This document shows, piece after piece, positions 27,138 to 56,314 of a stretch of DNA of 64,000 nt. The DNA lies in the NCBI GenBank assembly GCA_024349765.1, contig AP026073.1, positions 4,154,001 through 4,218,000 of the forward strand. The letters are read 5' to 3'. This stretch comes from Streptomyces nigrescens (GTDB lineage: Bacteria; Actinomycetota; Actinomycetes; Streptomycetales; Streptomycetaceae). The translations under genes and the position numbers were made by a program. The first letter of the stretch is position 1, and each line of letters starts with the position of its first letter. The notes under the pieces were generated by a model. The model saw only the letters and a program-made list of their open reading frames with translations. It was not told the origin of the DNA and searched no databases.

Positions 27138-27839
27138 TCAGCCGCAAAGACGAGGACGGCCGTCAAGTGTCGCCGCATCCACTCCGGCCTCACTGAGCAC
27201 CCCGGCGGCCACGCCACGACCGATCTGGGCGAGCCCCAGAAGCAGGTGGTCGCAGTCGATACCTGCCGAACCCGCCGCCTCGGCCCGCTCCTCCGCGATC
27301 GCGATGGCCTTACGGGAGTAGGGCGTCCAGGCAATCCGCTCCGCCGCTTGCGACGCCCCCATGCTCAGCCGCGCCCCGACGGCCTTGTGCAGGTCCTCGG
27401 GCGATACGTCGGCGGCCCGCAGCAGACGCGTTGCCGTGTTGTCCTCCGCGGTGAGGCCCCAGAGCAGGTGTTCCGTCCCGATGTAGTTGTTGCGGTGATG
27501 CACCGCGGCCTGCTTCACATGCACCATGGCCTGGCGGAGGTCGTCCGTCATGGTCTCGGGCCCGTAGCGCTTGTGGGGTGCTTGAAAGCGCTGCTGCACG
27601 GCTTGCCTGGTCACGCCCAGCGCCGTACCGATGTCCGTCCACGAGCTGCCGTGCATCCGGCAGTGCTCGACATAGTCCTCGACCAAGTCGTCTGCCAGTG
27701 CTTGCAGTTGACCGGCAAGGTTCGCCGCCACCGTGAGCAGTGCGAGCCAGTCCGGCTGTTCTTGTCCACCGGGCCGGTGCGCGGCATCGCAGGTCCTGTC
27801 GACTTCCGCTATCAGGTCGTCCAAGTCTGGGAGAGGCAT
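27138..27839 (-). CDS. HTH plus ClpN-domain regulator, paralogue 1
   Basis: 233 residues. Residues about 45-75 hold a helix-turn-helix (SWTDIGTALGVTRQAVQQRF), and residues about 90-230 two ClpN repeats (NNYIGTEHLLWGLTAED and IDCDHLLLGLAQIG). No AAA ATPase part is present, so it is not a chaperone; it looks like a DNA-binding protein whose ClpN part senses a partner or ligand. It is paralogous to the protein at 55.5 kb. ATG 27839 lies 35 bases from the -35 box and no ribosome site precedes it, so the mRNA may be leaderless. ATG 27854 is an alternative. Confidence 0.88.
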   Translation of the reverse strand: MPLPDLDDLIAEVDRTCDAAHRPGGQEQPDWLALLTVAANLAGQLQALADDLVEDYVEHCRMHGSSWTDIGTALGVTRQAVQQRFQAPHKRYGPETMTDDLRQAMVHVKQAAVHHRNNYIGTEHLLWGLTAEDNTATRLLRAADVSPEDLHKAVGARLSMGASQAAERIAWTPYSRKAIAIAEERAEAAGSAGIDCDHLLLGLAQIGRGVAAGVLSEAGVDAATLDGRPRLCG

Positions 27840-27841
27840 GA

Positions 27842-27886
27842 GGCAAGTACGCATTGACAATTCCCGTTTGTCAAGGCGCACTTGCC
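27842..27886. promoter_or_regulatory. 45-bp imperfect palindrome over the promoter
   Basis: Core TTGACAA (27854-27860), 7-base spacer, TTGTCAA (27868-27874), perfect. The dyad extends outward to 19-bp arms with two mismatches (27842-27860 and 27868-27886). On the minus strand TTGACA is placed as -35 for the ClpN-domain gene; on the plus strand it could serve the gene at 28000. It is a candidate operator for the HTH of paralogue 1. Confidence 0.65.
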
Positions 27887-27999
27887 TTCCTGTCCCCCCA
27901 ACGTCACGTACGCTGCCGGATATCCAGCACGCACCCCACCTCCCACCTCCCACCTCCCATCCCCCACCTCCTCCCATCCGCTCCGAACGGCCCGGCACA

Positions 28000-55407: not shown

Positions 55408-55455
55408 GTCAACCACGGGTTGACACTCGCTCGCCTGTCAACCTAAGGTTGTCAC
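55408..55455 (+). promoter_or_regulatory. Promoter-operator of ClpN-domain paralogue 2
   Basis: GGTTGACA (55418-55425), ten bases, TGTCAACC (55436-55443), perfect. A further half-site GTCAACC (55408-55414) forms a second perfect dyad with GGTTGAC. TTGACA as -35 and TAAGGT (55444-55449) as -10 with 18-base spacing put ATG 55456 six bases on, so the mRNA is likely leaderless. The dyad overlaps -35 and spacer, as a repressor site would. Confidence 0.7.
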
Positions 55456-56220
55456 ATGACGAATCCAGGCGGACCCACCCATCCCGTACGCCTCGACGAC
55501 CTGATCGAGGCCATCAAGAAGGCCCACCCGGACGCCCTCGACCAGCTCACCGACGCGGTGATCGCCGCTGACCACCTCGGCGACATCGCCGATCACCTCA
55601 TCGGCCACTTCGTGGACCAGGCCCGGCGCTCCGGCGCCAGCTGGACGGACATCGGCAAGAGCATGGGCGTCACCCGCCAGGCCGCTCAGAAGCGGTTCGT
55701 GCCGAAGACGTCGGGCGACTCGGACCTCGATCCGAGCCAGGGCTTCAGCCGGTACACCCAGCGGGCGAGGAGCGTCGTGGTGGCCTCCCAGAAGGAGGCC
55801 CATGCGGCGGGCAACGGTGAGATCGGCACCGTGCACCTCGTCCTCGGGCTGCTCGCCGAACCCGATGCGCTCGCGGGGAAGATGATCCTCGCGCAGGACG
55901 TGTCGCTGGAGGCCGTCCGGGAGGCGGCGACAGCGGCCCTGCCTCCCTCCACCGGGCAGGTCCCCGCGCTCATCCCGTTCGACGCCGAGGCGAAGAAGGT
56001 CCTCGAACTCACCTTCCGTGAGGCCCTGCGCCTGGGCCACAACTACATCGGCACCGAACACATCCTGCTGGCACTCCTGGAGCACGAGAACGGCTCGGGG
56101 CTGCTCACCGATGTCGGCATCAGCAAGGCCGCGACGCAGGAGCACGTGGAGGCCGCCCTGGAGGTGCTCAAGCGGATGAGCGGAGCCCCGGCGGACGGGC
56201 AGGGGAAGGCGGGCGCATAG
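55456..56220 (+). CDS. HTH plus ClpN-domain regulator, paralogue 2
   Basis: 254 residues. Helix-turn-helix SWTDIGKSMGVTRQAAQKRF (about 57-76), then two ClpN repeats (about 95-235: SRYTQRARSVVVASQKEAHA, HNYIGTEHILLALLEHENG). No AAA ATPase domain follows, unlike ClpC. HTH and both ClpN repeats align with the protein at 27.1 kb. Probably a DNA-binding regulator whose ClpN part binds a partner, a damaged protein or a Clp adaptor (inference). A palindrome covers its promoter. Confidence 0.9.
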   Translation: MTNPGGPTHPVRLDDLIEAIKKAHPDALDQLTDAVIAADHLGDIADHLIGHFVDQARRSGASWTDIGKSMGVTRQAAQKRFVPKTSGDSDLDPSQGFSRYTQRARSVVVASQKEAHAAGNGEIGTVHLVLGLLAEPDALAGKMILAQDVSLEAVREAATAALPPSTGQVPALIPFDAEAKKVLELTFREALRLGHNYIGTEHILLALLEHENGSGLLTDVGISKAATQEHVEAALEVLKRMSGAPADGQGKAGA

Positions 56221-56272: not shown

Positions 56273-56314
56273 AGCCGATGGGTCCGGCCGGAGAACCGGC
56301 CGGACCCATCGGCT
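56273..56314. terminator. Strong bidirectional terminator
   Basis: Perfect 19-bp stem (arms 56273-56291 and 56296-56314) with AGAA loop, between the ClpN-domain gene and the convergent APC permease gene. Confidence 0.88.

Follow-up and report, generated by a model that had tools for sequence, protein, structure and literature searches.

Two genes for helix-turn-helix Clp_N proteins

The window (the whole 64,000-nucleotide stretch of Streptomyces nigrescens DNA that was analyzed) contains two genes, here called A and B, which lie ~28 kb apart and encode proteins of a common build, in which an N-terminal helical part is followed by a helix-turn-helix (HTH) and two Clp_N repeats (PF02861, two stretches each, E 3.9e-21 and 1.1e-22), with no AAA+ part (Table 1). 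The HTH likeness of the two proteins, pointed out in an earlier note on this DNA, is real: they are 34% identical overall and have SWTDIG..xGVTRQA in common. Elsewhere in the 9.33-Mb, two-contig genome, Clp_N occurs in three frames of ATPase size and a weak one of 419 aa. The start of A was set at ATG 27839 because another in-frame ATG, at 27857, is absent from a 97% identical relative (L042). An AlphaFold2 model of A predicts helices at residues 67-74 and 78-85. The HTH of A matched no Pfam HTH model above the cut-off, and since comparison by VIA-align barely probes residues 1-90, its predicted fold rests on the model and the sequence.

Table 1. Positions of the genes, protein domains and predicted regulatory sites (window numbering unless a locus is named)
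Feature	Position	Strand	Remarks
Gene A, 233-aa HTH + double Clp_N protein	27138..27839	(-)	ClpC2-like, separate clade; start placed via orthologues
HTH of A, residues 66-86, SWTDIGTALGVTRQAVQQRFQ	27582..27644	(-)	recognition helix ~ residues 78-85
Double Clp_N domain of A, residues 95-226	27162..27557	(-)	
A operator (predicted), promoter-proximal dyad, TGTCAATGCGTACTTGCCT	27841..27859	(-)	1 nt before ATG
A operator (predicted), distal dyad, AGGCAAGTGCGCCTTGACA	27869..27887	(-)	holds -35-like TTGACA at 27869-27874
B distal operator (predicted), GTCAACCACGGGTTGAC	55408..55424	(+)	exact ClpC2 operator core
Putative leaderless B promoter	55420..55449	(+)	TTGACA 55420-55425, 18 nt, TAAGGT 55444-55449, ATG 6 nt on; read from sequence
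B proximal operator (predicted), GTCAACCTAAGGTTGTC	55437..55453	(+)	2 nt before ATG
Gene B, 254-aa ClpC2 homologue (HTH + double Clp_N)	55456..56220	(+)	
HTH of B, residues 62-81, SWTDIGKSMGVTRQAAQKRF	55639..55698	(+)	
Double Clp_N domain of B, residues 97-236	55744..56163	(+)	cyclomarin contacts kept
MFS transporter of genome G117	L259:11115-12545	(-)	A-type operator about L259:12588-12630
Split-operon HTH protein, 69 aa	L206:1275-1484	(-)	separate Clp_N protein downstream

B resembles the mycobacterial ClpC2 (Rv2667 and its M. smegmatis orthologue, described in PMC10030653) in length, domains, cyclomarin contacts and a tandem operator 2 nt 5' of the ATG. It matches the N-domain of Rv2667 (8ada) over residues 3-72, the N-terminal dimer/HTH domain (E 1.8e-32), and PDB chains named ClpC2 (9p2p, 7.8e-56; 8ad9, 3.6e-39; no AAA+), and in the alignment it retains all four cyclomarin contacts (Q94, F96, F172 and E181) and both arginines R185 and R189. 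By its sequence, B is the Streptomyces ClpC2, of the Rv2667 type. The “ClpC2” of the Streptomyces Clp literature, a Clp ATPase working with ClpP (PMC9765437), has only the name in common with it. Both A and B differ from the N-terminal domain of ClpC1/ClpC in lacking an ATPase part and in being fused to an HTH. The RelI antitoxin (Rv2664; PMC13284704) has a related HTH region (8e-7 with the N-terminal part of B, 1.7e-4 with A); unlike A and B, it is described as an 84-aa chain without Clp_N, and its authors report finding neither an upstream inverted repeat nor signs of DNA binding (PMC13284704).

A tree built without a named Rv2667 row places the ClpC2-type rows of other Actinomycetota among B, whereas A falls outside the ClpC2 clade, in a clade of its own (14 rows, support 100/100, stem 2.6). 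A is like ClpC2 in its domain order, its double-dyad geometry and its dimer salt-bridge residues (D46-R57, both retained), and unlike it in its GNCAAG operator and in five residues, which in the window are changed from F96 to P, F172 to W, E181 to A, R185 to E and R189 to A. Three cyclomarin contacts of ClpC2 (F96, F172 and E181) are thus missing in A, and neither R185 nor R189 is found in any of the 8 aligned A rows. Known here from its sequence, A is a rarer relative of ClpC2, with its own operator version and a predicted altered sensor pocket. Its distribution is patchy, with A-like matches of at least 76% in 9 of 150 genomes, the source genome included; a broken copy in G049 (L021/L097) was matched as two separate pieces, with no operator before the gene. 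No strong conserved neighbor was found for A (the best shared families occur in 9 of 55 loci, by a neighbor ORF filter that recovered the A gene itself in only 37 of the 55), and A is therefore treated as a stand-alone unit.

A third Streptomyces clade of HTH-Clp_N proteins, C (L022-L026 and L028; 233-234 aa), has tandem GTCAAY dyads. Phospho-arginine binds ClpC via a GTEH-type motif, and a GTEH motif is present in both Clp_N repeats in two aligned C rows, in repeat 1 only in the window A and in repeat 2 only in B.

Tandem dyads at the two promoters

As the earlier note observed, the promoter region of A contains TTGACAA-N7-TTGTCAA (27854-27874) within a palindrome, whose 45-bp core at 27842-27886 belongs to a 47-bp inverted repeat at 27841-27887, with two 19-nt arms (17/19 matched) and a 9-nt center. 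Repeats of this kind give 6 overlapping matches at 3 places in the window, compared to 1 in total in twenty first-order Markov copies of it. A further inverted repeat with 19-nt arms (17/19) lies at 1852-1898, and a perfect 19-bp stem with a 4-nt loop at 56273-56314 separates the 3' ends of B and a convergent permease-like gene and resembles a bidirectional terminator. The dyad of the paralogue, TTGACA-N10-TGTCAA, lies at 55420-55441 before the B ATG at 55456, and the two dyads stand at the same distance from their start codons (35 and 36). In the whole 9.33-Mb genome, TTGACA-N7..12-TGTCAA occurs at exactly two places, the A and B promoters (reversed control 0). Each of these dyads proved to be the inside of a larger arrangement of two dyads in tandem, spaced 28-29 bp and ending 1-2 nt 5' of the ATG; the unit described earlier joins the inner halves of both operators.

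The layout at B is GTCAAC-CACGG-GTTGAC, 12 nt, GTCAAC-CTAAG-GTTGTC, 2 nt, ATG, with 12/12 and 11/12 matches to GTCAAC-n5-GTTGAC in dyads 29 bp apart. These dyads match the published operator of the ClpC2 autorepressor, CGTCAAC-n5-GTTGACG (PMC10030653). The circuit, which the author of the earlier note had not seen described, is thus already known in mycobacteria, for which self-repression by ClpC2, by EMSA and a reporter assay, and its relief by cyclomarin were described in 2023 (PMC10030653). The layout at A, AGGCAAG-n5-CTTGACA, N9, TGTCAAT-n5-CTTGCCT, 1 nt, ATG (consensus operator AGGCAAG-n5-CTTGACA-N9-TGTCAAG-n5-CTTGCCT), has the same double-dyad geometry in a sequence other than GTCAAC-n5-GTTGAC. 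A itself has the HTH, the double Clp_N domain and, beside its start codon, tandem dyads spaced 28-29 bp, the features of a wider kind of putative HTH-Clp_N autorepressor.

A consensus promoter scan listed no promoter at A or B, and A has no clear -10 element. A search for a regulon across the genome found none: the pattern GTCAA-N7-TTGAC was located at 2 places only (reversed control 1), the B promoter and 1844614; the latter was taken as a chance match, in a stretch that looks by eye like a cobalamin riboswitch. A single A half-operator with 1 mismatch was useless as a genome search pattern, giving 56 matches vs 105 in the reversed control.

Conservation and specificity of the A operator

The search for loci related to A gave 78 loci, and upstream DNA was inspected for 56 of these (L042-L097). 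The upstream alignment comprises 50 loci and the window (51 rows); it omits L059 and L095, whose start is altered and before which no operator was seen, L077, with just 39 nt of upstream DNA, and L088, L093 and L097, whose match stops short of the start. At least 13 of the 19 arm positions are paired (Watson-Crick) in 48 of the 51 rows, and the dyad is thus conserved upstream of orthologues; the remaining three, by alignment L074, L081 and L092, comprise two with 6 and one with 11 of 19 paired. The arms covary, with 11 of 19 pairs changed on both sides when G-T is counted as a pair, a number reached in 0 of 500 shuffles (which ignore shared ancestry) and by no slid version. The n5 spacers of A also covary (3.63 of 5 vs 3.09 shuffled, maximum 3.33 in 2000), whereas covariation of the spacers in 20 B promoters is not clear (2.35 of 5 vs 2.11 shuffled, maximum 2.45). 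The covariation in A can be explained both by selection that keeps a double operator symmetric and by repair of quasi-palindromes through template switching.

The operator is not indispensable, since L074 and L081 have intact A reading frames with an operator ruined except beside the ATG, L059 has none before its altered start, and that of L092 is weak (11 of 19). L074 and L081 are natural candidates for unrepressed expression.

Among 392 Streptomyces genomes, the full A-type operator was located at 22 places, spread over 21 genomes, and its reversed control gave 0 in every row. Of these places, 21 lie directly 5' of an A gene (identity 76-100%). A genes with decayed operators, e.g. in G033, escape this exact pattern. 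The 22nd place, in G117, lies before an MFS_1 transporter gene (PF07690, 2.9e-53), ~9 kb from the A gene of that genome. Terpene synthase and P450 genes are located between the two.

Which domain reads the DNA

For mycobacterial ClpC2 it has been proposed that Clp_N, and not the HTH, contacts the operator via R185 and R189, with the N-terminal part serving only for dimerization. The R185A/R189A exchange weakens DNA binding, and in M. smegmatis the corresponding double mutant gives 2.0-fold higher expression (PMC10030653); B, too, keeps both arginines. However, both are gone in all 8 A rows, and D stands at the second position in the two aligned C rows, with dyad geometry unchanged in both groups. 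In a split operon found at L206 and L229-L258, a 69-aa protein carries the HTH and a second protein, encoded next, carries Clp_N, and yet tandem dyads one base shorter, GTCAAC-n4-GTTGAC, are present twice in all 30 loci examined (28 framed loci together with L237 and L254, which lie at contig ends). The L297 operon carries GTCAAG-n5-CTTGAC twice, with the ATG 3 nt on, and encodes two proteins, a putative membrane protein (119 aa) and a ClpC2-type HTH protein (147 aa), with no Clp_N seen. Finally, the crystal chain of the Rv2667 N-domain stops at residue 72, just short of the recognition helix. The loss of the arginines in A and C, the split operon, L297 and the end of the crystal chain together argue that the HTH rather than Clp_N would read the operator, and contact through the two arginines is improbable. 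The published arginine mutant may act via stability or non-specific contacts.

The mechanism is largely known already. This domain assignment is newly testable, and the family offers a natural experiment on it, in which A lacks the arginines of the published model, HTH-only proteins cannot carry them, and the operators persist.

Proposed mechanism and alternatives

The operators, their conservation and spacing, the family relations and the residue changes are direct observations. With them in hand, A and B very probably belong to one family of self-repressing sensors, with tandem-dyad operators and a double Clp_N body that would be released by ligand. In the proposed scheme, a dimeric HTH head binds the two tandem dyads over the promoter of a putatively leaderless gene, keeping it off. 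The double Clp_N body, as a copy of the substrate-binding domain of ClpC1, would bind a ClpC1-type ligand, candidates for which are misfolded protein, a phospho-arginine-type degron or a toxin mimicking one. Ligand binding would lift the repressor, leading to more protein, which would in turn soak up the ligand as a sponge.

For B, this scheme is carried over from its mycobacterial homologue ClpC2. ClpC1 is targeted by natural antibiotics, including cyclomarin A from a Streptomyces, for which ClpC2 is presented as a mycobacterial counter-measure (PMC10030653). According to a 2026 report, unfolded protein or cyclomarin relieves repression by ClpC2, and neither ecumicin nor ilamycin induces it (PMC12913811). 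The earlier suggestion that the Clp_N part could be a sensor agrees with what is published for ClpC2 (PMC10030653). Self-repression of A through its dyad, as first proposed, is strongly supported by the conserved, covarying operator. A would most likely follow the same scheme with another ligand, which probably differs from that of ClpC2 because the pocket differs. The altered pocket suggests a ligand of its own, which the A promoter could serve to find.

The earlier note also raised the possibility of mutual repression, which would link A and B in a circuit of two. The common core half-site GNCAA, the same spacing and the proximity of the genes (~28 kb) would fit such a circuit, but the outer halves differ (GGCAAG vs GTCAAC), and B was not detected in four of the nine further genomes that have A (G002, G021, G088 and G139, the last in about 1010 contigs) with residues 1-89 of B as the query at E 1e-8. 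All four keep a full A operator, so that cross-regulation is not needed, and we consider it unlikely. Slightly less probable still is an RNA hairpin, formed by the 47-nt palindrome in a leader of A and controlling translation. Its arms do pair over 19 nt and covary, but they reach to ~1-2 nt from the ATG with no ribosome-binding site between, a -35-like TTGACA sits inside the repeat, the spacers of homologues with the same layout do not clearly covary (the B values given above), and a double operator or template-switch repair of quasi-palindromes would account for the symmetry equally well. Very improbable is a reading in which another regulator, such as the Clp regulator ClgR, acts on both promoters and the HTH-Clp_N proteins act elsewhere, which would suit the lack of a Pfam match for the HTH of A, but not sites that track the genes, being absent elsewhere in the source genome and lying at A genes in all but one of 22 places in 392 genomes, nor an A-type operator that is kept where B is not detected.

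The wider family

The tandem-dyad arrangement extends to relatives of A and B. Among 38 promoters compared from the best-matching loci (20 B, 6 Streptomyces clade C and 12 other Actinomycetota), the two dyads of the ClpC2 and C types are 28 or 29 bp apart, center to center, in all 38. Both have at least 10/12 matches in 37 (the exception, L160, has 9), and the ATG follows 2-3 nt after the dyads in 36, with L146 and L153 starting further down. The split form was reached from tandem sites in A-bearing genomes. Its two frames overlap or are at most 2 nt apart in the 28 framed loci, and the HTH frame is longer outside Streptomyces. At E 1e-6, a split-type HTH turned up in 36 of 51 related genomes, including 23 of 31 of the same genus, and none was found in the source genome. 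By these predictions, sensors of at least four kinds occur in the genus Streptomyces (A, B, C and split), each with a matching operator. A search of titles and abstract starts in open-licence PMC for a short HTH-Clp_N protein or split operon in Streptomyces found none, which is weak evidence of absence.

A recognition-helix code, pairing VTRQAV with GTCAAG (A type) and VTRQAA with GTCAAC (B type), was considered and dropped because L057 and L068 combine VTRQAA, and L297 VSRQAA, with GTCAAG.

We tentatively suggest, as a possibility that falls short of an even chance, that the ClpC2-type HTH is a portable operator-reading head, which actinomycetes fuse to, or encode separately from, varied sensors (Clp_N kinds and a small membrane protein) and which acts on one type of double-dyad promoter next to the start codon. 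A would then be an insulated branch whose ligand is a different ClpC-binding molecule, either a natural product or a degron resembling phospho-arginine, and which would govern an MFS exporter as well in one genome.

The tandem-site pattern occurs at at least 75 distinct places in 111 genomes, in a search whose reversed control gave 1 or 2 matches in several genomes. Of the 75 listed, 60 are at genes or operons with a ClpC2-type HTH: 31 ClpC2-type (B), 24 split-type HTH (including L279 and L289, where the HTH alone is visible), 4 A and the L297 operon, with part of the B and split assignments resting on coordinates. The other 15 places, in 14 loci, have no relative beside them by tblastn. For seven of these loci this is the tblastn result (L272, L273, L277, L293, L295, L299 and L304), and in the other seven (L266, L271, L282, L292, L298, L300 and L302) no ClpC2-type HTH was recognized by eye among the neighboring frames. 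In L266, L271 and L282, an XRE-type-looking regulator is located nearby.
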